Source of the DNA: Favolaschia claudopus
Taxonomy: Eukaryota > Basidiomycota > Agaricomycetes > Agaricales > Mycenaceae
NCBI GenBank assembly: GCA_037176885.1
Contig: JAWWNJ010000156.1
Span: 434,001 to 498,000, forward strand
DNA: 64,000 bases
Direction: 5' to 3'
The notes under the pieces are model-generated. The model was not told the DNA's origin. It saw only the letters and a program-made list of their open reading frames with translations, and did no database searches. Shown one piece after another: positions 2,768 to 55,188 of this stretch (position 1 is its first letter; each line of letters opens with the position of its first letter). Both the position numbers and the translations under genes were made by a program.

Positions 2768-4700
2768 TTAGTTACCCAAGCGTAAATACATGTCATAGTC
2801 AGCGGTATCTATCAAGTAATAGAGATTATCCTTGTTTGAGCCGAACGCAGGACACATATAAGCCCCCCGGATGAAGTACTTCATGAAAATGAAGTCCATT
2901 TTCTTTGGTTGCTCGTATACCAGACAGCCGTCCCACACAGTATTTGGCTTCCAGGTGCTGGGCTTGAGCATAGTCACCAGTGCGACGTCGTATTTCTTTC
3001 CGTCCAGAGTTTTGCAGGTAAAAAGATCGTGTAAACGAGCACAAGGCGGGTGCTTTGGCGGCGAGGTTGTATTGACAAAGACGAAGTCGTGCCGCTCTCG
3101 AGTGTGAAAGTCCGGACTGCAGCGCAAGATATCACGTTTCTGCGTCCAGTCTTCCTTGGATTGATATTCCAGGTAGAGACAGCGATGTCGACGAATCTAT
3201 CATAGTTTCAGAATACTCAGGGAGGAAGAGAATACCAGAGATTATCGAACTCACCGAAATAGTATCTCCAAACAAGTCTCCCGGTGCTTCTTCGGGAAGA
3301 AATTTGCGGAGCCGTCCATCGAATCTCGCATAAACAGGGTTTCCTACCATCTCGTCCTCGACAACTTTCGATGTCAACCACCTCGTAGAAGCACCACACG
3401 ACCAATGATTCCCCGGGTCCGATTCAGGTTCGTCATTAACTTCAGAGGCCGACTGTTCAGATTCCCGCTTGTTATTTGCGTCGTCGAATGCCTGGACCTT
3501 CATACGGATCATAGCAATAGCCTCTTGATTCTGGTCAATTCGAGCGAGCTGCAAAACAGGTGCATTTAAATGCAAACTTCATCGGGGAGTGCGAACGAAC
3601 CTGCGGATCTTCGTCTTTGCCATTTGTTTGGCCGTAGGCTTCCTTGACTTCTTGATGAAAACCTTCTCCGAGTCGCGTCGTGTAATTATTTGTCGTACCA
3701 GTTTCCCGCAGGTCGCGAACTACATGGGAAACGGCATGCTGCTTTGGGAAGTCGAAATTTTTCCCGTATTCACTTGTCACGCGCTAAAGAATTTCAGAGA
3801 TGTTCAACTTACAGTTGCACCGGTACTTACTGAACAAAACTTTTCATACTTCTTGATATAGGTACGAAGCCGTGTGATTCGCTCTTCCGTGGTGCAATGG
3901 AGGCCGACCATGAGCCGGTATTGCTGGTAGGTTCGAATGCAGTGTACAAGAGCCGAGTTTCGGGGAAGCAGTTGAACAAGGCATGGGAGAACGCACTAAT
4001 ATGGGTTAATTATAAGCAGAGACGGAATTACAGAGCGACTGACCTTTAAGATGTCAAAGAAGGATTGCCCGTCTGTATAGTCAATGGTGGTAACATTTGG
4101 AAAATGTTTCAGTCCCGACCATCGAGGCATAGAGGCCATGCTACAGTAATTTTAGATTGTACAGAGATGAACACGAATTTGAACTACAAACTCACTTCTG
4201 TGCGAATCGACCTTTATACGCACGCGCCTTCAACACCTCAAGAATCAGTGGCCATAAATGTTTTTCCCACTTTCCGAGATCGTCCGAATGGAGTACATCG
4301 TAAAGAGCCCCAAGATGCGGATCCGAGTTTGCGAGCAACCAGAAAAAGTTCTGTCAAGAGTCAAGCAACGGCTAGATGTGCAAGCACGATGAAAGTTTGT
4401 TACCTCCGTGAGATGTAACTCGTATGACTGCAGAATTCTTTCTTGCTCAGTTTTATTGAGGGCTTCAAGAGCTTCAGGGTGAATTCCTTCGACAATCGAT
4501 GTTGTTCTCCTCTCGGAACAAGGCATCGCGGGCATGGGAAATTTGCCAGCGCAGCTCGGCATGCGCACATAGTACATGCTTCCTTGCCGTCGAGGGAATG
4601 AAAGGGGACAGCGGGAAATAAGACACGGTCAATGCCGTCCCCACATTTGACCGTCTCACCGTGCCGCGAGGGACGAATGAGCGATCCGAAAATCAAGAGC
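2768..4700 (-). CDS. Plavaka/Tnp2-like DDE transposase, multi-exon, 5'-truncated
   Basis: Transposase of the fungal Plavaka (CACTA-related) type. Successive minus-strand exons carry the family landmarks. At 4400-4700 are SRHGETVKCGDGIDRVLFP and the zinc-binding-like CPRCLVP. At about 4190-4350 are NFFWLLANSDPH and DVLHSDDLGKW. At about 4045-4140 are PRWSGLKHFPNV and TDGQSFFDIL. At 3535-3780 are KNFDFPKQHAVSHVV and TRLGEGFHQEVKEAYGQTN. The C-terminus (2768-3127) contains FHTRERHDFVFVNT and ends at a stop. Frames change at short introns, for example after the segment at 4201. The exon starting near 4700 has an acceptor-like AG, but I cannot find the expected upstream exons, so the 5' end is missing or displaced. 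No stop codon interrupts the recognised exons, so the decay is limited. The substrate would be the element's own termini; none were identified nearby. Confidence 0.7.
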
Positions 4701-5624
4701 TGAGGGTTTGTTTCTCAATTTGCTTCCTGCCGTCTCCCACCATCGATCTCCTTCAGCAGCCGTCAACCCGAACGCTCGTGCCTTCCTTTTCAAAGCTTCA
4801 AGTCTTCAACGCTGCTGGCAGTCTGCTGCGTTGGTTTCTACTCAGAACTCTATCGATTCCACACTGCTTGGTTGTCGCTCAGTGTCGCTGCGATCTCCAA
4901 GAATATCGCTACAGGTCTGATGAACCATTGTCAAGTTTCTTTCCATTCCTCGTCAAACGGTCACTTTGTGGCTTCAATATTACCCATCTTTGTCATTCAA
5001 CATTGCTCTATAGCTGTTCATACTCAACACAATCGAATTGCACTCGAATCAAGGCCGTGCCACTGCCTGCCCTCAACCCCATCAATCTTTTTTTGTTACA
5101 TTTTTTCGAATGCTGGCAAGCCTAATCAATCAACTCATTGAATATTTTCTGCCGTCCCATCCCAATTGATCAAATTCAAGGCACTTCATCGGAGCTCGAA
5201 TGACCGCCGCCTCAATATGGTTCCGAAGATTTACAATGTTTGGGCCATTGATGAGAATAACAAGCAACACAGTAGGTATTTGGATACAGAGATACTTACT
5301 GGGAGACTTCTCACTCTTCATCACTAGATCCTTGAGCTGAATCAAAGCAGTCGTGGCTTCTGAGGTACGTCGCTGAAAAAGAACAATCGATTGGCAGCTC
5401 GCTTTCCCGGTTCAGATTCGAGTAGTGTATTCCGAGTCCATCGGAGCGAAGTGCAGCTCGTGCAGTCCATATTCTTCCACTAGTGTTGTTGTCGATATTG
5501 ACGTCAAACTAACATACAGGGAGCAGCGGGACGTGGAACTCAAGCGAGTCCGCCATTTATGTTCAATGTCCATGCCCCGCGGGTGCCGGAGCGAAGCGGA
5601 GGCGTATCTTGTAGAAGGTTGAAA
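4701..5624. other. no confident gene
   Basis: A minus frame at 5130-5345 and a plus frame at 4661-5125 are open, but neither matches the expected N-terminal half of the neighbouring Plavaka-like gene. The region may hold displaced 5' exons or unrelated sequence. Confidence 0.4.
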
Positions 5625-6794
5625 TCAGCTTCGTTGGATTGTTGGATTTGATTTGATTGGGTTTGGGGCATTTGTTGATTTCACCTTCGGTTCTCCCGCT
5701 CGCGCTTCATCGTCACTGTCCGGAACCTCAAAGATCTCCGGGGACACTGATTGAGAAACAACCCCGACTTCAGGTTCCGAAGTGGAACTCGTCAGAGTTG
5801 TGCACGCTTTTCCGCACACGGGATCGGGATCGCCACTAAGAGAAGGAACGATAGAGTGGAGGACACGCTGCCCAAAGCAGCGGTGCGGCAAAACGTGATC
5901 GGGGAGGCGGCTGGTAGGCCCAAAAAGAGGCGTGGAGAGAGGTCCAGAGGATCGTTGAAGTCAGAGGTATCAAGCTAAACGAATCAAGTCAACGAAAGAT
6001 TTGAAATAATTTCAAGGAGTCGTTTACGCACCACCTTCGGTAAAATGCCGCACCAGATAGTGGCTGAGGTCGGTGCACTGGTTACCGCGAAATCGTTCAA
6101 TGCTGCACCAGAAGCCGGGATGTCTGTGTACGAGGGGGGGGGGACCAGACTTGCGCTTCTTTTCCGGAGGCGAAGTCGGAGTCAACACCGATGAACCAGC
6201 ACCCAATCCATGCAAGTTGCGTTGGATCGAAGCCTGACGAGCCTGTTGAACGGAAGCAGTCAAAGGCCGAGCGAGACCGGTGAAGGCAACAACAGGGCGA
6301 TGGGGAACGATGACAGAGGAAGCGGTAGAAGATGCTGCAGCAGGGACAGGCTGGGGAAGCGAATGAGAGGGAGTCCCGGAAAATACAGCCGAAGTGGTGG
6401 TGGTCGCGGTAGTGGTTAAGCTTGATTAAATTAACGGATCAATGAACATCGCGTAATGATGAAATACCCACGTTGCGGGGGGTTGAACAAGTTGAGCGTG
6501 AGCCGACCAACGGGCACCACAAATGCAAATCAAACGCATGGTCCAAGTAACACTTGCCTTGAAAGAAGTCAGAATAGAATAGCACACATTCAAAACACAA
6601 ATTGGACTTACCGACCAGAACGAGGCACAACGGCCATCACTCGTTCCGCCGGGGGCAAACATCTTGTTTTGTTCGGTGAGGTCGGAAAATTGAATCGTGT
6701 GGACCAAGTAGGGATGACCGCAGGAGAAACAGATCGTCTCCGGGTTGTCAAAGTCCTGTATTAGTTCGTTTAAGGCAAGGAAATGGAAGAACAT
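5625..6794 (-). CDS. uncharacterised basidiomycete protein with CxCGxxxxxH motifs
   Basis: Three minus-strand open segments (6426-6794, 6024-6263, 5625-5891) could be exons of one gene. The first contains CFSCGHPYLVH, then GGTSDGRCASFW, then CICGARWSAH, a repeated Cys/His pattern likely to bind zinc. The middle part is proline/lysine rich. The last part is acidic (EVPDSDDEARAGE) and ends at a stop. I have seen this two-motif arrangement in many mushroom proteins of unknown function. Exon boundaries are not established and the start is unknown. It may be host-encoded or transposon-associated, since it sits beside a transposase on the same strand. Confidence 0.35.
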
Positions 6795-23665: not shown

Positions 23666-24765
23666 TGTCGGAAAAACCCCAGTTCGCTTATGACGGATTG
23701 ACCCGGATTATGGCCTTATCACGGCTTTCAAGCCTCCCACCGGGGGATTATGATCCGTCATAAGCCGTTCTAATCGGCCCACCGCCGAAACAGTACCAAA
23801 TGTTGCGGTAGCTCCACCGCCCTTTTCAAACGTACTAGAAATCTCATTTTTCTGGTCCATAGACCTCAAAGAGCTGGTGGTCGTATCGACTTCAGTTTCC
23901 TTAAGACTGTGCCCTACTGTGCCGGCGTTGCCGGGATCGCTTACGGCACCTTCACACAGACTCCACAGCTGGCCTTCACAAATACCAAGAGGTGCTGCGG
24001 ACAGCGTCCCACGCCTCTTCCTCCTCAACCACCACCACAACTACCGCACAAGTCTCGTATTCAGGTCATCCTCGTCGGTGCTACCACCTCCTGTGATCCA
24101 CGTCTGCCTTCGAACACGTCTTCCGTCGTTCGAACTGTTTCACCTTACCTTGTTAACTTACAGTTAGCGCGGTCCACGAAATTGTTCCCCCCACTGGTTT
24201 TGTCGAAGTTTGAGGTGTACTACGAGGGCCAAATGTTCGCGGGTTCCCTGGTGAGTTGTTGCCCCTCGACTTTTAGTTGTGTCTGAAATTGTCTGAGTTC
24301 TCATGAATTAATTCTTGTCACGTAGTAATATCGGTGCGCTTAGCAGTCTCTTCTCTGTTCTTCCCGGTTCTAATGACCGCTTTCCAGCGCTGTGTTGCAT
24401 CGGGTATGATTCGAGTGGTACGTTTGCACAGTGTTTGCTCATAGGTAGTTCCGGCGTCGGATTCGAAGTCGAGGTTACCCCGTAGGCGATCCGTGCTGTG
24501 GCGGGTAGCACCCAGCCGTTGTTGTAGCCCATGAATACATGTTTTTGTCACAATAATTGAGCCCTTCGTTTCTTAAATGTGCGGTAATGCGCGGTAATGC
24601 ACAGTAATGGCTTGTAGACACCTAAATCCCGTATAATCCCCAGCATGGATTATAGCGGCTTGAAAGGTTTACACCTATGCGCTATAATCCCCTTATGGAT
24701 TATGACCTCATGGCGGCTTATATTGACTTACGAGCCGACACAAGCTGCGCAGGATTTTTCCGACA
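23666..24765 (+). repeat. 1,100-bp TIR element with TT duplication and subterminal repeats
   Basis: Ends TGTCGGAAAAA and TTTTTCCGACA are perfect 11-bp inverted repeats flanked by TT (23664-23665 and 24766-24767). Removing the element plus one TT restores the gypsy frame ...PTEVPEERWH.... Subterminal copies of GGATTAT(A/G)....GGCTT are clustered near both ends (23696-23775 and 24630-24720), the arrangement seen in CACTA-type elements. An internal plus frame (23909-24286) is proline rich and unrecognised. The superfamily is uncertain: a 2-bp TT duplication with TGTCGG ends is not a combination I can assign. Confidence 0.75.
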
Positions 24766-26120
24766 TTCCCGAGGAGCGCTGGCACACCGTCTCAGTCGAC
24801 TTCATTGTCGAGCTTCCGGAGGCCCATGGATGCGATGCAGTCATGGTCGTTGTCTGTGCCCTTGGGAAGAGAGCGCACTTCATGGAGTGTCACACCACCA
24901 TTGACGCGGTTGGCGCTGCTCGGCTGTACTACCGGAACGTCTGGCGCCACCATGACCTGCCGGAGAAGTACATTTCGGATCGTGGCACCCAGTTCATTGC
25001 AGAGTTCACGCGCGAGCTTTGGCGCCTCGTTGGGGTCACCCCAGCCACTTCTACGGCCTACCATCCGCAGACCGATGGCCAAACGGAGCGCGTTAACCAG
25101 GAACTCGAGCAGTACGTCCGGCTCTTCACCAATTACAAGCAGGACGACTGGGATGAGCTGCTGCCTGCAGCGGAGTTTGCGTACAACAACCACATGCACT
25201 CCTCCACGCAGCAGGTACCGTTCATGACGGACACTGGTCGGCTTCCACGGATGGGCTTTGAGCCCCACGCTGCACGTTCTAGGTTAGAGGCTGTGAACGA
25301 GTTCCACGATCGGATTGCGTCAGGGGTTTCCGAGGCGAAGGCGGCACTCGTCAAGGCCAAGGCAGAGTACAAGCAGTACTATGACCGCCGGCGGACACCA
25401 GCTCCAGACATCAAGGTTGGTGACCGGGTGTGGGTTGATGCTTCAGATATCCGCACCACCCGCCCTTCGGTGAAATTCTCCCACCGGCGTATCGGCCCCT
25501 TCAAGGTTCTGAAGGTCGTCGGTAATGGTGCCTTCAAACTGGAGCTGCCGCCCCGGTACTCTGCCCTCCACCCTGTCTTCCCCGTCGTGAAACTTCAGCT
25601 TGTGGAAGCCGATCCATTCCCCACTCGCCCCAGACACGAAGAGCCGCCACCAGTCCTTGACGTTCCTGGCAACAAGCAATGGGAGGTCGAGGAGATATTG
25701 GATGCCAAGATCCGCTATGGGAGTCTATGGTACTTTGTTCGCTGGAAGGGTTATGACCCGTCCCATGATCAATGGGTGAAGCACTCTAATGTCTTTGCCC
25801 CGGACGCTGTCGCTGCTTTCTACCGCAAATACCCTTCCAAACCTCGCTCCATTGCTGTTGCTGCCTTTGATTCCCTTCCCTTCCGTGACCGCTCGTCAAC
25901 TCCAGCTCAGGTGCGATCTATGCGTCGAGGCGCCGCATTCCAAGGGGGGGATGATGTCAGGGGAACTCCCCCTTTTGGCACTACACAGCCACCTATGACG
26001 CAGGCCTCTTGCAGATTTCCCACTTTCCTGTCAAATCCCCAAAGCCCTATGTCATCGTGGAGTAAGGCATGTGACTTGGCCCGGGATCATTGCCGATCGC
26101 TCCGAGCTTGTGGGAACTAG
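24766..26120 (+). pseudogene. gypsy A integrase catalytic core and chromodomain
   Basis: The open frame carries all three catalytic residues: D in [11 protein letters not shown] in ISDRGTQF and E in [12 protein letters not shown]. It is followed by the GPY/F-type region [16 protein letters not shown] and a C-terminal chromodomain, [20 protein letters not shown] then [12 protein letters not shown]. The chromodomain places the element among chromoviruses, where it directs integration to marked chromatin. There are no stops through the chromodomain, so this portion is young. It lacks its own start because the gene is split at 23666 and truncated at 23142. Confidence 0.85.
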
Positions 26121-26492: not shown

Positions 26493-29063
26493 TCAAAGTG
26501 TTATTGGAACTGAATTTTGGGGGTGGGAGAGGTAGAAGTCCCGCCGGATTCTCAACATGGGCGTCGAGTAAAAGATCTCCAGAACATCGTAGCAGTATTT
26601 TGCGAGGAGAGCGGTGACCTCTCGGCGCGGGAGCAGATCACGGAAGAAAAGGCCGGCATCGGTGTAAGCGCCCTTCATATTCGGCAGCGTCGTGAATAGC
26701 TTGTCGTAGAACGCGCGACGGAGCCCCAGCAAAGGTGTGTGCTTACAGCCGAAAAGCGCGTGTACTGGATCCTCAATGCAGATTTTACAAAATCTGCATA
26801 ATCTCCACATTTCGGGGACTGCCTCAGGTCGATCTCGATCTGCCCAAGTCATTCTCTCGCTGGCAAGGGCATGAGCGGACAGCAAGATGTGCGTTAGAGC
26901 CCTACGGTGCTTTGCATTATTGACTCGCAGATAATGTCGGAAGCAAAGGACTTTGCAAACCAGCTTTTTTCCGTCGGGCTCCAACCGATTCGCAAACATA
27001 TCCCGCGTTTTGCTGTAAGACATCAGCGAAGTCTGTAGGTAGCCTTCCATGGACTTTGTGAGGCTCTTGAGCAACCCTTCCACCGTTGATCTGCTGACCG
27101 CGTCCGGACGTCTCAGGTCCCACCAGATAGGCACGGGCAGTTTCGACAGCACTAAGCAGATGTCATTAATCCACGAAATTTTGTGTTGTCTTGCCAAGTC
27201 CACTGAACCTAGCAAGCCGTCGGCAACCAGTCGTTCCTCAGCTTCGAGTACGACCAGATGACGGAGGTAATTTAGAAGCTGCCTTGCTCGTCGATAGCGA
27301 ATAGGTTCAAGCCCGGTTTCAGTAAAGAGGATTGCTGTCATACTTCTCGAGGTGAGGCCGAGCATCCTTCGAAGATAGTGCTGCTGAATTGCCTCCTTTT
27401 CCGCAATACGGGATTCCACGACATCAGGACATATGTCCGCGCCGGAAATGAGGTATGGGTCTACACGGGCCATGTACAAGGTTCGCGCGTCCCAGACTGG
27501 TAGATCTCCCACAAACCGGTTAACCCCCAAGCAGACATTGGCGACATTTTGAGCTTTTTCGTTGTAGACTCGGTGGTGCTCGGAGTACATGTCCTTCGAT
27601 CGGAAGTCATGCCAAATTCCCACATATTTCAGCACCGAAACCTCTTTGATCTTACGGCCATTCAAGGTGAACTCGAGGTCTTCTTTCGGGCGAACTCCAG
27701 CCACTGCGAACTCACATTTCAGCTCCTGAATTTCGCATCCCATGTCACCCATTTGCCTCCCAGTTTCATTCAATTTCTTCTGGAAGCTGGGTGCAGAGGA
27801 CGCTGTAATCATCAAGTCGTCTGCCTGTTCGAGTTTGGGGACAGCCTTTCCGTTGAGGGTTATATCACCGGGGAATGCCTGCAGCTTTAGCGCTTTCAAG
27901 AACAGGTTCCAGAGATAAGGTGATGTAGGGTCTCCCGTTAGGACTCCAAGCAACGATCTAAATGTTTCCGATAGCTGGCCGTTCAGGCGAACCATATAGA
28001 CCATTCGATCGTACAGCATCATTATCCAGTCAATGTACGGGCCCCAAATGCCGTCTGCCTGAAGGCGGTTCCACAACACAGACCTGTTGGTAGCGGGAAA
28101 AGCATTCTTGAGATCAATGTATCCGAGGATCAGTGTTCGTCCCTCTGCTAGTGCTCGGTCAGCCAAGACTCGTAGCAGGAAGGAGTTGTTATTGGTCCGG
28201 TAGCCTTCCCTGAATGCGTTTTGAGATCTCGGTAGGAGCTTAGCATCCTCTGAATATTCTCTAATCCGCCAATCTAATATCAGCATCAGAGATTTCAGCA
28301 ATGAGCACTCGAGGACTAGCAGTCGATGAGATTCCGGGTCTTTTGGATCTTTTCCTCGCTTCAGAATTCCAATCACCAGCGACGCGAGCCAGAGTGAAGG
28401 TGCCGACATCTTGTCTAGGCAAGCTTGGAGAAGTTTTCTCAGTGCTACATTCGACATCGCTAAGATGTCTCGATAAGAGAAGTCATCAATACCCGGCACA
28501 CTGTCCTTGGTGTGCTCTTTGATGTGAGTCTTCAAACGCTCGATTTCTTCCGCGCATAATTTCCGCGAGAAGCTACGCCTCGGTGAAGTGTCAACGTTTG
28601 ACTTTGGCCACGACTCCGCCAATTCCTTCTGTAACTCGAGCTGCTCATTGTTGAATGAAGCCGGGGTCACTTCTGGTAGGTTCATTCTCGCTTTGAACGT
28701 CTCGGTCAGCTGCTCAATTGTAACCTCTAGCGGCCGTGGGCGTGGATCTGTCCAGGATCGGACGAGTCGCCAAAATGCGCCGGCATCACTTCCGCAGGCC
28801 ATCAGAGAATCCCGCAGCTCTAGTTCAAGTTGTCGCGCTTTCTCTCTGCCTCGATGAGAGTCAGGTTCGTCATCATCGCAGACATCTTCCACATGTGCGC
28901 GCGGACGAGGGGGAGCAACCTCTGGAAGAGCTGTTGACACTTTGGGAATAGATAGCGGGATTGCAGCTTGTTCTTGTCGCCACGGAGAATTCTCGAGAGG
29001 TGTGTAGTCCGTCTGCAATGGGGGTAGCCATGCACCTGACTTCGCAGCCCTTAGTACAACCAC
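26493..29063 (-). CDS. LINE (non-LTR) reverse transcriptase, 856 residues, endonuclease absent
   Basis: One uninterrupted minus frame. Residues about 95-135 hold the LINE linker AFWRLVRSWTDPRPRP. The RT follows, with ILKRGKDP at about 233, GYIDLKNAFP (first catalytic Asp about 317), GDPTSPYLWNLFL at about 378 and LEQADDLMI (catalytic ADD, about 414-416). The thumb then shows LKYVGIWHDF. The C-terminus has a zinc-finger-like CRFCKICIEDPVHALFGCKH. The catalytic box reads QADD where LINEs normally have YADD or FADD. No apurinic-type endonuclease precedes the RT, so the copy is 5'-truncated or the ORF is a stand-alone type. No stops occur, so the copy is recent or under selection. The first in-frame ATG is at 29063, which is not necessarily the native start. 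Confidence 0.8.
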   Translation of the reverse strand: MVVLRAAKSGAWLPPLQTDYTPLENSPWRQEQAAIPLSIPKVSTALPEVAPPRPRAHVEDVCDDDEPDSHRGREKARQLELELRDSLMACGSDAGAFWRLVRSWTDPRPRPLEVTIEQLTETFKARMNLPEVTPASFNNEQLELQKELAESWPKSNVDTSPRRSFSRKLCAEEIERLKTHIKEHTKDSVPGIDDFSYRDILAMSNVALRKLLQACLDKMSAPSLWLASLVIGILKRGKDPKDPESHRLLVLECSLLKSLMLILDWRIREYSEDAKLLPRSQNAFREGYRTNNNSFLLRVLADRALAEGRTLILGYIDLKNAFPATNRSVLWNRLQADGIWGPYIDWIMMLYDRMVYMVRLNGQLSETFRSLLGVLTGDPTSPYLWNLFLKALKLQAFPGDITLNGKAVPKLEQADDLMITASSAPSFQKKLNETGRQMGDMGCEIQELKCEFAVAGVRPKEDLEFTLNGRKIKEVSVLKYVGIWHDFRSKDMYSEHHRVYNEKAQNVANVCLGVNRFVGDLPVWDARTLYMARVDPYLISGADICPDVVESRIAEKEAIQQHYLRRMLGLTSRSMTAILFTETGLEPIRYRRARQLLNYLRHLVVLEAEERLVADGLLGSVDLARQHKISWINDICLVLSKLPVPIWWDLRRPDAVSRSTVEGLLKSLTKSMEGYLQTSLMSYSKTRDMFANRLEPDGKKLVCKVLCFRHYLRVNNAKHRRALTHILLSAHALASERMTWADRDRPEAVPEMWRLCRFCKICIEDPVHALFGCKHTPLLGLRRAFYDKLFTTLPNMKGAYTDAGLFFRDLLPRREVTALLAKYCYDVLEIFYSTPMLRIRRDFYLSHPQNSVPITL

Positions 29064-31559
29064 CTCGATGAAAGCTCAGAAAAGTCGCAAAATGTTCTTA
29101 ATTGAAGCAAGAGAAATATAGGAGACTACATATATATATTTGAGACAGAAAAAAAGCTTTGGGACGAAAAATATTCCGGGACTCGGAATAAAGCACCGAA
29201 TCGAACTTGGACTCGGATTAGACAGCATATGTATTACGACGTGCTCGAGCGACAATTAAAACACCCAAACACCCTACAAACTGAAGGCAGAGGACACCCT
29301 GGGGTCCTAGATGGCCGGCGTGCATGGCCATCACCCACCCATCAAGGATCGTCCGATGGGAGGCCTGGTCAGGTTTTGTTGCCATACAATTAGGCATCAA
29401 AGGCTGGCATCGGCCGAAATCGAACCGTATCGATCTCGGCTACCGTACTTCTGGGGGCTCGCTCGAGCTCCCCTTTATCTCCTCACAAGACCTTCTCGTG
29501 TCTACGAACAATCTTTGCTGAGTCCACTCACCGGCCTGGGGGGCACTGAGCGCCGTTCGCGGCTGCTGGTGATCCTCTACTCGTTGATTTCGTGATCGAG
29601 AAGCTTAGACGCTTCATATACGTCGCCGAGCGTTGTTCACCAGCTATCGATGTTCGTCACACGGGTATCTTAGGATGGGGTTCGGAAGATCTGGCACGGG
29701 AGAGAAGGATTCAAGGAGGACGAGAGTATAGCAAGCCATGCATACTTCCGGTGTTGCTGTCGTCTTCGCCTCGGAAATGAATTCCGTTGGAACCACGAAA
29801 TCAGCGTGACTGGGGAGGCTCTTCGTAGCTACAGGCCTTAGATCCTCGTACCGACCATGGTTGAATGAAATCGGCTCTCAATTCGTCGTCGCAACGTTCT
29901 CGTGAGACGACTCTTTGGTCATCAGATCCAGTTCACTCCGGAAGCTGCACTACTCTTCCGCCGACCTTTCAATGTTCAGGCGCACGCTGAAGAATGAAAG
30001 GACTGTGTCGTCGGAAACACCAAGCGCCGTTCGCGGCTGCTGGTGACTGTCTGTTCAAGGACTGTGCGAATGGGGGGCTGGGATTTCAGCTTTGAAATTT
30101 TTTCTCTTCTTCGACGCTATCGCTGGGGGGTGATGGATAAGTATAAGCTATATCGACGAAGAAGAACACACTTTCAAGCCCTTCTCAGCCTTGCTCTACT
30201 CCCGTTCAAAACTCGAGTACGTTCATTCGCTACTGAGCGTCGGCATCTGGATGTCTATGACGCCCCTTGGAACCCTTCCCAAACTGCTGAGACTCTGGTG
30301 AGATCTTCTCGTCAGCGGCATGTACAGTCCCTCTGGCGGCACGGACTGACTTTGAGCTCCCGTCGTTGGATTAAAGCTCGAAGCTCCAGTCTGAGCGCTG
30401 TAGCACGCGGCCGTCTCTGAAGAGAAATTATCCTCTACAATCGACGACGCACTGCATATAGCACTGCTGAGATTGGAAGAACATGGTCTTGGTGGTTTCG
30501 GGATAGGATACAATGCTCGGTCTAACCGAAACCAATGAAGGCTGTAGGGTTTGAAGTTATTAGACGAGGAAGCGCTGACACAGCGCGTCTGGCTGCATGC
30601 CTCAGTCGTTTGAACCCATGCATTCAAGGAAGAAAAATGGATTGACAGTCAAGTACTACAAGGTGTACAGATCCGAGTGGGAAATAGCAGACACTTCACT
30701 TCGCATGGTCATCAGTTAACGCCTCGGGAGATATGAGTGTGTGGGCGTACCCCAAGGTCCTTCGTCCTGTCATACGTTCCTTCCCTGACATTCCTCCGTC
30801 GACCTCACCGCACTCCTTTTGACACCCGACTGTCACTCCGTCTTCAAGTCGCGAATTCAATCGTATGCGATTGGGAGGCGCGGAAGCCGGAAGTCGCCAA
30901 CGTGGGGCACAGAGAAGCACGGAAGCGAACGTCTTGAGGCTGCTGCTCCCGATATTGTCGACTTCAAAAGGCAGGCTTGGGCGGCGTACCTTGTTCCTTT
31001 CGACCCCTGCTGTCGTCCACGACGCGCTCCTTTGACACCCATTCTCCACGCTCACCGTTTCCGCGCAAATTCTGGTCGCATATATTCACAAAGCGCGGCT
31101 GCTCGCATTCGCCAATGGGCGAAAGGTTCTCGAGCGCGTTTCGACGCCGCTGGGAACGGATCGAGGAATGGGGGCAGCTATTGGCTCCACTTGCGGTCAT
31201 TGTTAGTTGACTAGTCGCGAGATATGTATGCAGAGGGGTGTACCTCGTCCTCACTCGCCTTCTTGCGCGTTTCTTTGGCCATGTCATGGACGTCAAGCAC
31301 CTCCTCCGTTTCGTACAGGTCTTCTGCATATCTCGCGTTATCAAGGGAGAAGGCAAGCGAAGTGAAATCGCGTACCCGACGTCAAGCTCAAAAGTCGATG
31401 ACCGCTGGGGGGCTTTGAACGGTGTCGACACAGAGCCCAACAAGGTCACATCGTCGGTCTGTTAGGGTCCGCGGACGTGCATTATCAATACCTGGGCTGT
31501 GCAATTCCATCCCCCGACCACCTCGTTGCTCAACCTCCAGCCTCTCCGTCCTCAAGCTG
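29064..31559. other. no confident gene; repeated motifs
   Basis: Several frames of 60-160 residues are open, but none has a recognised motif. Repeats seen: GCGCCGTTCGCGGCTGCTGG at 29549 and 30029, and about 38 bp (TCGGCCGAAATCGAACCGTA onward) at 29412 that recurs inverted at about 19673. A hairpin of about 25-bp arms (CGCGAGATATG...GCAGAGGGGTGTAC) spans 31212-31338. The 29100-29200 part is A-rich next to the 5' side of the LINE ORF. Confidence 0.4.
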
Positions 31560-41465: not shown

Positions 41466-41626
41466 ACTCGTAGTGAGAAAAAGTCATGGACGGTCGGTTC
41501 TTTGACCAATCTCGGCCGTCTTTGCACCTTTTTGCATGGTTCCAGGTGCTGGGTGTATGTAGACTGCACCTGTAACAAATTACTGACCATCACCGAGATC
41601 AAAAATAATTGATGTTTGGCCGGGCA
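41466..41626 (-). repeat. repeat E inside gypsy A copy 2
   Basis: The gypsy sequence stops after DHGVQDD and resumes at HTVSVDF; about 160 bp of repeat E replaces the integrase zinc-finger region seen in copy 1. Within it, TCATGGACGGTCGGTTCTTTGACCAATCTCGGC precedes the part shared with 35042-35155. This is a deletion plus insertion, since about 220 codons are missing. Confidence 0.7.
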
Positions 41627-42104
41627 CACCGTCTCAGTCGACTTCATTGTCGAGCTTCCCGAGGCCCATGGATACGATGCAGTCATGGTCGTTGTCTGTG
41701 CCCTTGGGAAGAGAGCGCACTTCATGGAGTGTCACACCACCATTGACGCGGTTGACGCTGCTCGGCTGTACTACCGGAACGTTTGGCGCCACCATGGCCT
41801 GCCGGAGAAGTACATTTCGGATTGTGGCACCCAGTTCATTGCAGAGTTCACGCGCGAGCTTTGGCGCCTCGTTGAGGTCACCCCAGCCACTTCTACGGCC
41901 TACCATCCGCAGACCGATGGCCAAACGGAGCGCGTTAACCAGGAACTCGAGCAGTACGTCCGGCTCTTCACCAATTACAAGCAGGATGACTGGGATGAGC
42001 TGCTACCTGCAGCGGAGTTTGCGTACAACAACCACATGCACTCCTCCACGCAGCAGGTACCGTTCATGACGGACACTGGTCGGCTTCCACGGATGGGCTT
42101 TGAG
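41627..42104 (+). pseudogene. gypsy A copy 2 integrase core
   Basis: Near-identical to copy 1: [33 protein letters not shown] (Asp retained, next residue C instead of R) and [12 protein letters not shown]. Interrupted after MGFE by the 4,087-bp transposon; the rest of the protein resumes at 46192. Confidence 0.85.
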
Positions 42105-42584
42105 TGGGGTTGGGCCCGATCAGTGCCGAATGCGGCCTCTTTGTACTTGTTTGCCCCCAATTGTGCATGGTTTCCGTTTCCCTCCGATTCCAAATCGCGC
42201 CCCCGTGTGCCTCAGCCTCTGCGAATATTAGCCTGATAGCATTGACTTGTATAAGAATGCGTTCCGAGCAAAACGGACAGAGGGATTCGGAAAATGTTCA
42301 AAATTGAGTGAACAGCATGCAAAATAGTCAACGATTTAAGCCGTTTTCCGTCAAAATTGCACCCCAGCAAAATTCCTCTGTCCAATCTGTGCGAACTGGT
42401 CTTGTCAGACGACCCAATAGATAAGATATGGTAAAGATCTGGTGCCTGACACTCGGGGGACCGCCCCGGAAAGAACATCAAATCGCGTTACATGTGTGAC
42501 ATGTCACTCGATTAGATTGCCTTGCTCTTGACGCGTCGCGCTCATTTCTGGAATCCTGCGCCTCTATCTCTGTTCCCTGGCCCC

Positions 42585-45500
42585 ATGACACGAAAGAAGT
42601 CTGACAAGCAGCTGGCTGGCTTAGCTCTGGCTCGTGGATCCCGACACAACACCGCTAAGAAAGAAAATCTCTTGCCGACACTCTCCTCACCTCCTCGCAC
42701 GAAAACGCGTGCCCAGACGAATCTCTCCGCCTTGACTGACCGTATTGACGCTCAGAAAGTCGAAATCTCGAGCCTCCGCACTGAAAACACTCAGATCTCT
42801 CTCAAAAACTCTCACTTGGCGACAAAACTCGACCAGTCTGCTGCAGCCATATCTGTATTGGAGGAAGAGAAGGTTGTGATGGTGGAGGAGCTCGAGGCTG
42901 TGAGGATGGATTTAGACGAAGCCAACACGGTTATCTCCGACCAGCAGCGGGTTATACAACAGAAAACTCAGCGGATCAACCGTCTTATGCGCGACAAAGC
43001 AAATCTATCTGCCAAACTTGGTGCGGCACAGCAACAACTCGTAGCGGCGGTTCTTCGTGCAGAGAAGGCAGAGAAGCTTACGGTCTCGGACTCCCTTCGC
43101 ATCGAATCCCTCCTACGCACTGTTTCCTTTCTAAACAACAACATCAGTCATCACGAGCAAAAGAATAAAGAATTATACGGCACCCTTCGCGCTACTCGTA
43201 AACAAGCTCAGCGCGCTAAAACTTCGCTGCAGATCGTTCGGAAGGAGTTATCTCGGAAATCGAAATGGGTTGGGAAGACGCACCGCACCTACAACTCAAA
43301 CTACCGATCCCTTGCGCTGGCATTTCACAAGGCCGGCTGCGCTCAACATCGAATTGGTTCGCTTCTCGTCCGCGTCGGAAATGTTCTCGGAGTCAAAGTC
43401 TCACATGCTATGAGCCGGCGTACGATCTCCCGTGTCATAAAAGAGGCCGGAATCAAAGTTCGGCTACAACTCGGGCATGAGATAGCGCTTGCAAAGAGTA
43501 AGACCCAGTTCTTGTCACCTTGAAAAATTTGTTCTGATGATAGTTTCATGGCAGATCTAGTCCTCAGCAGTGACGGCACCAGCGTACGAAACCTCCAGGT
43601 TGAGGCTCGACACATTACCCTCGAAGCACCGACCTACACAAACGATCCCACGGCTCCTCAGAAATCATTCCGCACGCGCGTCGTTGGATTGGAGAATGCT
43701 CTGGACCACACCGCACAGACACAATTTCGTGGATGGGAAGAGGCCAACCGCAAGATCTTCGAGACATATAGCAACAGTCCTCTGGCTGAACGCGACGCTC
43801 TCAATGGAATTAATTTGGAGCTCGATGATATGTGGCGGAAGATGGTTGCTTACAATGCGGACCACGCGTCTGATGTACGCTTGGCTGCGACGAAATGTAT
43901 CGAGAAGAAGAGGAGTGTACTGGAGAGGGATGCAGGGGAGAATGTGATCCAGAATATGTCGGACGAGGAGCTCAAGGACGCACTGTGGGATGTGGTGCAG
44001 GAAATGTGTGATGATCCTGATGGGCTAGATCCAACGTGAGTGTCGATTCAATTTTACCGTGGCTTAGTGGCGCTAAAATTCACATTTGAGTTCTCTCGAC
44101 GACAAATTACGCACCGAGGCGCTTCAGGCCCTAGCTCGACACCTTGGCTCACAAACCATTGAGTCTCTTTCCCAACGAGAGCAAGATCTTCTCCTTCGGG
44201 TCGTGATAGCCGGTTGCTGCGACCACAAGGATCACAATTGTACGAAAGCAGGTGTCGCAGGGATGAATGCAGCGTGGGAGGAACTCGGACTCACCCCGCC
44301 AGTGCTGCTAGCGAACAAGGACAATGCTGCGACGATTGCCCTTGGGACAGACGGCGATTCCGATGCTGTCGAACGTGCAATTAAGGCGAGTCAAAACGGT
44401 GGTTACAAGCTAGTTTCAATCTGCGGGAATCTATTTAGACACAAAGACGACAAGCGCGGTCACCAAGATTTCCATCGGCACTACTTCGAACAAGTCAAAT
44501 TCGACGTTACTGGCGAGCATTCAACCGTAAAATTCCCTGATACTTCGAATATCCGCTTTGGATCACACTGTGCTGGCGCCGCTGAACTCGTCAAATTCCA
44601 CTCGGCGTATCTTGACTTCCTGGCGATCATCCGGGACTCGAAACAGACGGCAGGCCTCAACCATTCCGAGCAGAACGCCCTCAACGGACTCAAAGACATG
44701 GCTACAATGACAGAATGTTGTGTAATGACGCTATACAAGAACGCCGTGTCTGATCCCTACATCGCCGCTACCCGTAAACCCGGAGTTAACCACGCAGATC
44801 TTGGTCCCCTTCACGAGCAAGTCATCGCACACATTCAGAAATTACACGACAACCCCGATCTACTGCTTGATCCCACCTCTCACACAGGCGACGCAACACT
44901 CGACGGCTTACCTTACCGAGACCAATTTGCGGTTGACTCTGTGCACTTCATGGCCGAACACAACAATCTTCCTCACCTCGAGGTCATTTTGAAGGCATTT
45001 CTCAAAGCGACAATTCCTGCATGGCAGCGGTTCTCAGAGGAGTGGAAACCCGGGAGCATTCTAGACTCACTTTCGCCTGCCGAGAAACTTTTGATGTTTA
45101 TTCCTGCCAACAACGATGCGAACGAAGGTCTTTTGGGCGGTTGGCGTGTCTGGTCTCGGCGCTCCGGCATCACCATCGAAAACTACAGCTTCGAAACCGC
45201 CTATCATCACAACGACACCGAGGCATTCGCACATGCCATGCTCACCGAGGAGGAGGATCAAATTTATATCATGCGGTTGGCTCGGATCGAGGATGCGAGT
45301 GGGGCGGCGAAGAAATTCCGGGAGGAGCTGCTAGCTTTCAAGCAGCGGGTTGCAGAGGAGGCGAGGGTGAAGCAGCAGGCAAAGCAGGACAAAGCAGCGG
45401 ATCGCAATGCGACACTCAAAGCCGTGACAGTCATCACTGACGCAGAGGTGCTCGGAAACCTCAAGCGCGACCTCCTCCGCCAACAACTCGACATTCGTCG

Positions 45501-45726
45501 CGAGATTCTGAGAGAGGATGTGATTAGCAAGACCCTTCTGAAGGACATGAAATCAAAGCCGGCCATGCTACAAGCAATCTTGGCCTCAGACGCTCGGTAT
45601 GTTCATGTAAACCCGTTCTCCGCAGACAAGTCTTATGCATTTCTAGTCGGTTGGCTGTCTAGTAGCCTTGAATGTTATCATATGGACCCCTTAGATAATA
45701 CCCAGTGTATTTCAGTGTCAATCTGA
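42585..45726 (+). CDS. putative transposase of the 42105-46191 element, three exons, about 1,009 residues
   Basis: Exons 42585-43497, 43555-44035 and 44091-45726 join in frame; introns of 57 and 55 bp start GTAAG and GTGAGT and end in AG. Residues about 30-230 form a long coiled coil (e.g. ISSLRTENTQISLKNSHLA). About 240-295 is helix-turn-helix-like: LAFHKAGCAQHRIGSLLVRV then MSRRTISRVIKEAGI. Splicing creates LVLSSDGTSVRNLQVEARHI (Asp 311). Exon 3 has the cluster CCDHKDHNC (507-515), then FPDTSNIRFGSHC (Asp 615) and NNDANEGLLGG (Glu 810), followed by a charged helical tail. I propose D311, D615 and E810 as a DDE triad; this is inference. I recall the SDGT, CCxHKD, FPDTSN and NDANEG motifs in many unannotated mushroom proteins, but in no named superfamily. 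There are no stops, so it could be active. An upstream in-frame ATG at 42522 would add 21 residues. A further 3' intron after 45598 (GTATGT) is possible. Confidence 0.75.
43498..43554 (+). other. intron 1 of the putative transposase
   Basis: GTAAGA at 43498 and GGCAG ending at 43554. Without splicing a TGA at 43521 would stop translation. With splicing, the motif SSDGTS follows directly on QLGHEIALAK, as I recall it in related mushroom proteins. Confidence 0.75.
44036..44090 (+). other. intron 2 of the putative transposase
   Basis: GTGAGT at 44036 and TTTGAG ending at 44090. Splicing skips an in-frame TGA and joins DGLDPT to SLDDKLRTE in the frame of exon 3. Confidence 0.75.
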
Positions 45727-46191
45727 ATCGTTGGCGTCGATAACGTTGAGTAATAGGTTGACAATGTTCATTTGCGATCAATTGCTGGATGAGCCATCAA
45801 AGGTGTGATGTTGGTTCGTGTCTCCTTCAACAACCGCATACACAATGGACACCAGATTTGGAATAGCTCTACTACACCACAGAAAGTGTCCGTTCTGAAT
45901 TTATTGGCCTTTTACGAGCATATTTGGTGGAACTTGGGGACCGAGAAATACTGACCAAAATTGCTTGATTGAGGACGCTGTAGAACAGCGAGGACAACTC
46001 AAGACACCACAATTTTTTGCAGAAGGCACCCAAATTGATGTATTTCCAACTTTCCTGTTCAAAGTTGACCACGCGCATACTTGTTGCTGCAGAACATCTC
46101 AAATGTTGAAAAAACCGCCCCTTTTGGGATTTGATTGGGGAACAAACAAGTACAAAGAGGCCGCATTCGGCACTGATCGGGCCCAACCCCA

Positions 46192-46772
46192 CTTTGAGCC
46201 CCACGCTGCACGTTCTAGGTTAGAGGCTGTAAACGAGTTCCACGATCGGATTGCGTCAGGGGTTTCCGAGGCGAAGGCGGCACTCGTCAAGGCCAAGGCA
46301 GAGTACAAGCAGTACTATGACCGCCGGCGGACACCAGCTCCAGACATCAAGGTTGGTGACCGGGTGTGAGTTGATGCTTCAGATATCCGCACCACCCGCC
46401 CTTCGGTGAAATTCTCCCACCGGCGTATCGGCCCCTTCAAGGTTCTGAAGGTCGTCGGTAATGGTGCCTTCAAACTGGAGCTGCCGCCCCGGTACTCTGC
46501 CCTCCACCCTGTCTTCCCCGTCGTGAAACTTCAGCTTGTGGAAGCCGATCCATTCCCTACTTGCCCCAGACACGAAGAGCCGCCACCAGTCCTTGACGTT
46601 CCTGGCAACAAGCAATGGGAGGTCGAGGAGATATTGGATGCCAAGATCCGCTATGGGAGTCTATGGTACTTTGTTCGCTGGAAGGGTTATGACCCGTCCC
46701 ATGATCAATGGGTGAAGCACTCTAATGTCTTTGCCCCGGACGCTGTCGCTTCCAAACCTCGCTCCATTGCTC
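46192..46772 (+). pseudogene. gypsy A copy 2 integrase C-terminus and chromodomain
   Basis: Resumes at [17 protein letters not shown] and continues to the chromodomain ([20 protein letters not shown]). A TGA at 46367 replaces the tryptophan of GDRVWVD. Compared with copy 1, about 24 bp are missing after FAPDAVA. The match to copy 1 ends at SKPRSIA. Confidence 0.85.
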
Positions 46773-53598: not shown

Positions 53599-55188
53599 CA
53601 GTGGCGGCAAAATCTGATGTCACCCCCCAAAAAGGGAAATGCCATCAAAAATAGTCCTGCTCCCCTCTCTCGAGCGACACGATGCCTCGACTCGGTTGAA
53701 AATTGTGTATTGTAGTGTATATGGGTCTATAGTAGCCCTCTGCAACACTCTTGGGTGAAAACAAATCATTGAAAGCTCGAGCTCAATCTTTTTGTGCATC
53801 ATGGTGATGTCATCACACATTCTCAACCTCCACCACCACAGCGCGATGGCGGACGACGCGTCCAGCGTGCGCAACTACACCCACTGCACTCCCACCAAGC
53901 GCAAAGCCCTGCTTTTCTATAAAAATCGCGACAACATGTCTTGGCGAGAAATTCTACAGCAGCCAGAGTTCCGTGGTACCGGCATCACCAAGCGCACTTT
54001 GCAGCGCTATTACGAAAAAGTCACCGCCAACGACGAGAATTGTTATGTCTCGGGGAGGAAGGACAATCCGGGTGGGAGACCAAGGCGAATTTCAGCGGAG
54101 GCCTTGCAAGAAGCCACGAACAGGCTTGATTCCGGGGAGCTCGAGGACGGCGAGGATGTTCGTCGTCATGTCGTCCCTTATGCTCCCGATCGCACAGTCC
54201 GCAATTCTCTCGCTCGTGCAGGCTACCCAGGCTTTGTACAGAAGAAGAAACCGAACCTTCTTCCGCACCACATTGAGCAGCGCAAGGCAATGTGGAATCA
54301 GTATCAGGCTTGGCAGGATCCCGCAGTGTTTTCCCGTGGGATAATGATTTTCTCGGACGAGAAAAAATTCATTCTCCATGGATCAGATGGAAGGAAGTAC
54401 TGCCGGCGTCCACGGGGAAGGGATGCCCTTGTTGACAGGACCGTCCAGCGTCAGGTAGCTCATGGGCGAGGGAAGGGAACAGGTCGGGGAAAGCTTAATG
54501 TTTGGAGTTGTCTTCATCCCTTGGGAACTGGCCCTCTTGTTCGTGTGGAAGGAATTTTGACCGCAGTACAGTATATCCAAATCCTCCAAAATGGCCTACT
54601 CCCCACCATTCTACGGCTTCCCCTCCTCCAATTACGGGACTTCTTCTATTTTCAGCAGGACAATGATTCAAAGCATACAGCACATCTGACGAGGGACTGG
54701 CTGCGCCAGGAGAACATCAATGTGTTCAATTGGCCCGCCAACTCGCCGGATATGTCCCCCATCGAGAATTGCTGGGCTGAACTCAACCGCCGTGCCCGGC
54801 TTGACACGGAGTATTTCAATATTCACACATCCGAGGAACTTTTCGGGTTGTTGCAGCGCATTTGGGGGTCAGAAGATTTTCAGATATATGCCAGGAAAGT
54901 GTACAACTCATTTCCCAAGCGCTTGGTAGAGTTACAGGAGAATAACTTTCAATGGGTTGACTATTAATGCCTGTATTTGCCGAATTTCATGTATTCTCTT
55001 GTAATATGGCCCAAATTGTCTTTTTTTTGTCGAAATTCTTCGAGCACAAGCTACTATAGACCCATATACACTACAATACACAATTTTCAACCGAGTCGAG
55101 GCATCGTGTCGCTCGAGAGAGGGGAGCAGGACTATTTTTGATGGCATTTCCCTTTTTGGGGGGGTGACATCAGATTTTGCCGCCACTG
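53599..55188 (+). mobile_element. complete Tc1-type transposon
   Basis: 1,590 bp with TIRs of about 140 bp beginning CAGTGGCGGCAAAATCTGAT, nearly perfect complements, flanked by TA at 53597-53598 and 55189-55190. It contains one intact transposase gene. The long, well-matched TIRs and open gene suggest a recent insertion. Confidence 0.93.
53846..54967 (+). CDS. Tc1-family transposase, intact
   Basis: Cut-and-paste transposase. Numbering from the upstream ATG at 53792 (391 residues), the helix-turn-helix region spans about 33-75 (TPTKRKALLFYK...TKRTLQRYYEK). A basic GGRPRRIS motif lies near 94-101. The DDE catalytic residues are D189 (IMIFSDEKKF), D290 (FQQDNDSKHTA) and E325 (SPDMSPIENCW), with 34 residues between the last two, the DD34E signature of Tc1. 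I prefer the ATG at 53846 (MADDASS), because the preceding residues lie next to the terminal repeat, but 53792 is open too. No stop or frameshift occurs and the gene has no intron. Confidence 0.92.
   Translation: MADDASSVRNYTHCTPTKRKALLFYKNRDNMSWREILQQPEFRGTGITKRTLQRYYEKVTANDENCYVSGRKDNPGGRPRRISAEALQEATNRLDSGELEDGEDVRRHVVPYAPDRTVRNSLARAGYPGFVQKKKPNLLPHHIEQRKAMWNQYQAWQDPAVFSRGIMIFSDEKKFILHGSDGRKYCRRPRGRDALVDRTVQRQVAHGRGKGTGRGKLNVWSCLHPLGTGPLVRVEGILTAVQYIQILQNGLLPTILRLPLLQLRDFFYFQQDNDSKHTAHLTRDWLRQENINVFNWPANSPDMSPIENCWAELNRRARLDTEYFNIHTSEELFGLLQRIWGSEDFQIYARKVYNSFPKRLVELQENNFQWVDY

Follow-up and report, generated by a model that had tools for sequence, protein, structure and literature searches.

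What kind of mobile element has broken an integrase gene in the mushroom Favolaschia claudopus (Mycenaceae), and to which group of transposases does its single long gene belong? The locus lies in a 64,000-nucleotide stretch (contig JAWWNJ010000156.1 of assembly GCA_037176885.1, positions 434,001 to 498,000 of the forward strand), referred to below as the window, where an earlier note had proposed a complete transposon of an undescribed superfamily. We confirmed the element as a complete DNA transposon. It is probably an autonomous cut-and-paste transposon of an unnamed fungal lineage, with a transposase distantly related to hAT in structure.

Ends and insertion site of the element

The terminal inverted repeats (TIRs) of the window element start with TGGGG and are perfectly identical over exactly 49 bp, with the first mismatch at bp 50. 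The target site duplication (TSD), CTTTGAG, is exactly 7 bp long, and the neighbouring bases outside it are unlike on the 2 sides. The earlier note had described the same ends and had placed the insertion in a gypsy integrase gene whose frame is restored by removal of the element, and both descriptions held. The left flank matched the Pfam rve integrase core (PF00665; E 8e-6, 26.5 bits, under the curated cut-off of 32.6), the short right-flank piece had no Pfam match in the same scan, and the short flanks joined without the element formed one open frame of 69 codons. Further, unfilled sites with a single CTTTGAG each were identified in at least 7 other gypsy copies (C151, C137, C138, C86 [twice], C20, and C3), where both 120-bp flanks matched side by side with 99-100% identity and overlapped by exactly 7 bp. 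The flanks were searched separately in the host assembly (264.6 Mb, 460 contigs), with the best 40 of 300 and of 293 candidates considered, so that 7 is a minimum.

Copies in the host genome and their target duplications

A left-end probe of the element gave 29 matches in the genome, and a protein search with exon 3 gave 79 scored places among 463 candidates, some copies accounting for 2 places. Identity groups among the copies lay at ~100-93, 82, 71, 58-61, 48, and 33-41%. TSDs were counted in 21 copies of subfamilies A to E with both ends read; copies with 1 end not fetched, not found, or lost were left out (L014-L028, L047-L052, L055, L056, L058-L061, L084, and L032 with L083). An exact 7-bp TSD was present in 15 of the 21, and none of 420 mismatched pairs, made by swapping left and right flanks between copies, matched, which argues that the duplications are not due to chance. 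Subfamily A, which holds the window-like copies, had exact TSDs in 5 of 6 (the window copy, C59, C20, C14, and a 488-bp copy on C137; not C1), and the other subfamilies had them in 2 of 2 (B), 6 of 10 (C), 1 of 2 (D), and 1 of 1 (E) copies. L062, the E copy counted, has an inverted repeat that extends one base past the end used here; we set this end at T since another E copy, L061, differs there.

Comparable TIR ends were present in subfamilies B to E. TIRs start with TGG in subfamilies A, B, and C, with TGGGGGTCGGC in D, and with TGATGACGGGC in E, and an inner TIR block resembling TTTGTACTTGTTTG was found in A, B, C, and E. Paralogues with identity as low as 34% have TIRs starting with TGG or TGA and mostly 7-bp duplications, and the expectation that homologues would be bounded in this way was borne out for paralogues in the same genome. 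Among the inexact copies, C17b has a 6-bp duplication, C1 and L064 (on C3) have none, and C22, C82, and C122 have a near-duplication 1-4 bases away from the element end. The near-duplications, all in subfamily C, are TACTCA (C82, L042/L066), CACTCA (C122, L044/L075), and CACCCAA (C22, L040/L070), and the extra bases between them and the TIR look as if flanking bases had been carried along or repaired in.

When the 15 exact TSDs were compared on the + strand of each record, T occupied position 2 in 11, and position 6 held A in 9 and T in the remaining 6. The symmetrised pattern approaches CTAWTAG, of the form nTnnnAn. Hermes favours 8-bp nTnnnnAn targets (PMC10368747), a like pattern that is one base longer than the one found here.

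Several copies carry features of their own. L013 (C137), of 488 bp, is an internally deleted derivative that resembles a miniature inverted-repeat transposable element, with both TIRs, a CTTTTTT duplication, and G rather than T as the outermost base at one end. The C14 copy (L012, locus 2856-6024) has a ~3.2-kb insert in exon 3 with TGT...ACA ends and a 5-bp duplication, GATCC, like a nested LTR-retrotransposon insertion. L010 (C20) and L018 (C40) have a common right flank, GGAGTCCGGACGG, with 6 bases lost at the element-flank junction in C40; this looks like duplication of the locus together with a small deletion. Four partial subfamily A copies (L015, L023, L024, and L025) share a truncated right end, beyond which the same foreign sequence follows in each, and this suggests that they are carried within another repeat.

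Gene, protein, and predicted active site

We found a single long gene in the element, with 3 exons, 1,009 codons plus a stop, and 2 GT-AG introns, in agreement with the earlier gene model; use of an alternative first acceptor would shorten it to 1,007 codons. AlphaFold2 (AF2) models of 2 relatives, P0006 and P0071, predict an RNase H core with a D after strand 1, a D after strand 4, and an E on the last core helix, and the corresponding residues of the window protein were assigned by topology and alignment. On these models, the encoded protein is predicted to be a DDE/D transposase with an RNase H core and an intact active site. The catalytic triad had been proposed as D311, D615, and E810; D311 and E810 were kept, and D615 was replaced by D407 because D407 stands at the end of strand 4 and D615 falls within a loop of the helical portion. 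P0006 has H where the first D is expected, and P0071 has D there (D100).

Relatives and searches for known families

Two rounds of protein search identified 128 distinct relatives, in keeping with membership of the gene in a widespread family of unannotated mushroom proteins. Each search scored only the ~8,000 candidates with the most words in common with the query (7,991 in the second round), and remoter kin may therefore exist. Named relatives among those listed were hypothetical or uncharacterised mushroom proteins, except for one Laccaria "glutamic acid-rich protein", and no Favolaschia protein of the family was among the relatives listed in either search. The mushrooms named belong to the Agaricomycetes; relatives without an organism name are probably metagenomic. 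A precomputed PF14916 annotation was present on 3 of the 128 relatives, and the others had none.

The observation that the protein matches no named transposase family was upheld at the level of HMMs. With Pfam at E 0.01, 60 family proteins gave no match to a transposase model and 4 weak matches, all to other families. Scans with Pfam, NCBIfam, and PHROGs (5 proteins each for the last 2) likewise gave no transposase, only coiled-coil or weak matches; for 1 Pfam scan at E 1, the best 25 of 48 families were considered. The KDZ Pfam domain, presumably PF18758, was not among the 4 families matched at E 0.01, in a scan without a KDZ positive control. The BED zinc finger had no match in the family, and its model also matched 0 of 33 hAT controls (mushroom hAT proteins chosen from 101 found) at E 0.01. 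No named transposase was among the 7,991 word-sharing candidates scored in the second round, and no transposase was among 24 matches up to E 10 in a PDB sequence search, where the strongest were coiled-coil proteins or regions. A peptide pattern occurred in 28 stretches of viral contigs and 19 stretches of a prokaryote genome collection, none of which was confirmed as a relative. In the accessible text of the literature, including PMC12730594, PMC3706591, PMC4763223, PMC7780238, PMC4455052, PMC10368747, and PMC9674265, the family was not described; Repbase, supplements, and most subscription journals lay outside this search, and a Repbase entry is possible.

Structural relation to hAT

The models of both relatives matched the hAT transposase Hermes far above other structures in Foldseek and predict a Hermes-like fold that includes the helical insertion domain; a score twice that of P and ISCth4 was recorded for Hermes. 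RNase H with a helical insertion is also found in the P element and in the IS256 family (ISCth4), the latter with CxxH. Transposases beyond hAT, P, and IS256 were not prominent in the structure match lists, which carries no weight as evidence; to our knowledge, several CxxH superfamilies have no solved structure, so that the fold comparison is one-sided. Besides the predicted fold, the family shares with hAT elements (Hermes, Ac, Tol2, and the fungal Restless and Kat1) the order D-D-CxxHxxN-E and a target that tends to have T in second and A in penultimate place. The best full hhalign alignments placed the family motif DTSNTR/TSNNR on the hAT motif "D..TRWSST", and the distance from CxxH to the motif had a median of 108 (78 of 128 family proteins), compared with 77-143 in 19 of 33 hAT controls. 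FPDTSNTR[FY].S may correspond to hAT "D..TRW.S", a match that is suggestive only.

Several results weigh against this relationship or against the reading as a whole. The Foldseek TM-scores to Hermes were low (0.14-0.43) with large rmsd, the folds were modelled on relatives and not on the window protein, and the predicted catalytic residues come from topology and alignment rather than from superposed coordinates. At E 0.01, none of 60 family proteins matched the hAT C-terminal dimerisation domain (PF05699), compared with 27 of 33 hAT controls. Comparison with the hAT profile in hhalign gave probabilities of 0.7% and 0.5%, and after removal of gappy columns, the 60 scrambled hAT profiles, made by 59 column shuffles and 1 reversal, included 10 and 14, respectively, that scored at least as high; since scrambled profiles score equally high, no sequence kinship with hAT is demonstrated. 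With the trimmed profiles, the A1 alignment shifted from the TRW motif to another place. The gap between the second D and CxxH was ~105 residues (52 of 128 family proteins, range 67-116) vs 31-34 in 19 of 33 hAT controls. Finally, 6 of the 21 copies are without an exact 7-bp TSD. PF05699 had 150 scored places in the host genome; 1 of the 79 family places lay within 5 kb of one (~4 kb, on C30), and none coincided.

Rank of the lineage and alternative readings

That the lineage is a new eukaryotic cut-and-paste superfamily, sister to hAT rather than inside it, is a tentative proposal that falls a little short of an even chance. Such a superfamily would have 7-bp TSDs, TIRs starting with TGG or TGA, an N terminus resembling a coiled coil, and a D-D-CxxH-E core in which an additional helical segment separates the second D from CxxH, and in these searches would extend only to Agaricomycetes and unnamed, probably metagenomic, sequences. 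Under the Repbase rule (PMC4455052), transposases of different superfamilies do not converge in PSI-BLAST, although exceptions exist; here, no convergence with another superfamily occurred in 2 search rounds (among word-sharing candidates) or in 1 profile-profile test (with hAT). Because the search was restricted to word-sharing candidates and hAT was the only superfamily in the profile-profile comparison, we call the group an unnamed hAT-like lineage, either a superfamily or a hAT clade. The earlier claim of an undescribed superfamily therefore stands in part: no named family was found by HMM and no description was found, but the implied absence of kinship to any superfamily was not supported, as the models of the relatives match Hermes. 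A very diverged clade within hAT, a new group like hAT5, hAT6, or hAT7, would differ in rank only and overlaps with the reading as a hAT-like lineage; we hold it possible but lean away from it. The Hermes-like fold with its insertion region, the nTnnnAn target, and the best full alignments on "D..TRWSST" at a similar distance from CxxH all favour such a clade, as does the occurrence of hAT7 elements with 7-bp TSDs in rust fungi (PMC12730594). The same paper classes hAT7 as hAT by transposase similarity, whereas the present family has no such similarity to the 33 mushroom hATs tested. Membership in hAT is further opposed by the lack of PF05699 or any other hAT Pfam match in 60 proteins, by a profile-profile score not above that of scrambled profiles with the A1 alignment then off the TRW motif, and by a stretch from the second D to CxxH that is ~70 residues longer than in hAT. 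The TSD is 7 bp rather than 8 bp (5-, 6-, and 7-bp hAT groups exist), and the 49-bp TGGGG-type TIRs also differ from those of hAT. TIRs of hAT elements are short and of CAGNG or TAGNG type.

Distant membership in another CxxH superfamily (P, MULE, Kolobok, Dada, or IS256) is unlikely, given that Hermes scored twice as high as P and ISCth4 and that no Pfam match to them was found in 60 proteins. Dada, in the parts of its description available, resembles the family in its 6-7-bp TSDs and an insertion that separates the second D from D/CxxH, but it targets small-RNA genes, its described families (Dada-U6, Dada-U1) are without TIRs, and its insertion is a DEDDy exonuclease, whereas the window copy has TIRs and lies in a gypsy integrase. 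Kyakuja, of the KDZ group, has similar Agaricomycete hosts and the same TSD length of 7 bp, yet the 2 Kyakuja families described in PMC12730594 have CA..TG termini and no TIRs, and with no KDZ Pfam match in the scan above, membership in this group is very improbable. It is at least as improbable that the protein is not a transposase and belongs to a host gene family or a passenger sitting in the element: most of the collected relatives are annotated as hypothetical proteins in NCBI genomes, which favours a host family, but the gene is the only long one found in the element, the predicted RNase H core has conserved acidic residues, and paralogues are repeatedly flanked by TIRs and TSDs.

Proposed mechanism

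Past mobility, a 7-bp stagger, and TIR-bounded copies are shown by the sequence data. In the hAT-like mechanism that we propose, the transposase would bind the 49-bp TIRs through its N-terminal coiled-coil and helical region, and the RNase H active site (D311, D407, and E810), with the auxiliary CxxH, would excise the element, probably through a hairpin on the flanking DNA as in hAT. PMC4763223 reports that a CxxH double mutant of Kat1 nicks and cannot form hairpins, and that the histidine of CxxH in Hermes belongs to the active site. The free 3' ends would then attack an nTnnnAn target with a 7-bp stagger, giving the 7-bp duplications and the target pattern that were observed. Short copies with internal deletions, among them the 488-bp copy, would probably be mobilised in trans.

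Features of the window

Table 1. Positions in the window of the element, its gene, and the residues and motifs discussed (TIR, terminal inverted repeat; TSD, target site duplication)
Feature	Position	Strand	Basis or remark
Complete transposon, 4,087 bp	42105..46191	+	TIRs, TSD, unfilled sites in other gypsy copies
Left TSD CTTTGAG	42098..42104	+	Flank comparison
Right TSD CTTTGAG	46192..46198	+	Flank comparison
Left TIR, 49 bp	42105..42153	+	End comparison
Inner 14 bp of left TIR, TTTGTACTTGTTTG	42140-42153		Similar block in subfamilies A, B, C, E
Right TIR, 49 bp	46143..46191	-	End comparison
Ty3/gypsy integrase frame broken by insertion, left part	41616..42104	+	Resumes after 46198; PF00665 and open joined frame
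Exon 1	42585..43497	+	N-terminal coiled-coil-like region and helical region ahead of catalytic core; weak coiled-coil Pfam matches
Intron 1 (GTAAGA...GGCAG)	43498..43554	+	
Exon 2	43555..44035	+	Predicted RNase H strands 1-4 with D311, D407
Intron 2 (GTGAGT...TTTGAG)	44036..44090	+	
Exon 3	44091..45726	+	Predicted strand 5, CxxH, helical insertion domain, E810, C-terminal helices; stop
D311 codon (SDGT), predicted first catalytic D	43572..43574	+	D in 54/61 aligned proteins; end of strand 1 in model of a relative
D407 codon (ADHA), predicted second catalytic D	43860..43862	+	60/61 aligned proteins; end of strand 4 in model
C507-x-x-H510 motif, after strand 5	44215..44226	+	Each residue in 60/61 aligned proteins
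D615-R620, FPDTSNxR[FY] motif	44539..44556	+	D in 58/61, R in 58/61; possible counterpart of hAT "D..TRW"
E810 codon (NDANEG), predicted catalytic E	45124..45126	+	60/61 aligned proteins; near start of model helix 575-590

Other mobile-element genes in the window were an integrase-like frame with a chromodomain (Tf2-1 type; 24618-26117, + strand), a reverse transcriptase (26496-29075, - strand), and a DDE_3/Tc1-type transposase (53759-54964, + strand).

Significance

With these results, 128 unnamed proteins gain a likely function, that of a transposase, and an element with defined ends, by which mushroom repeat libraries can be annotated. A link to hAT in structure but not in sequence opens the origin of the hAT group, and its limits, to testing. 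The combination of a 7-bp stagger and a hAT-like target pattern also provides a natural case for comparing how the length of the stagger is determined. The window copy appears intact and lends itself to a direct activity assay. If it ranks as a separate superfamily, the lineage would make up part of the unclassified DNA repeats in expanded mushroom genomes.

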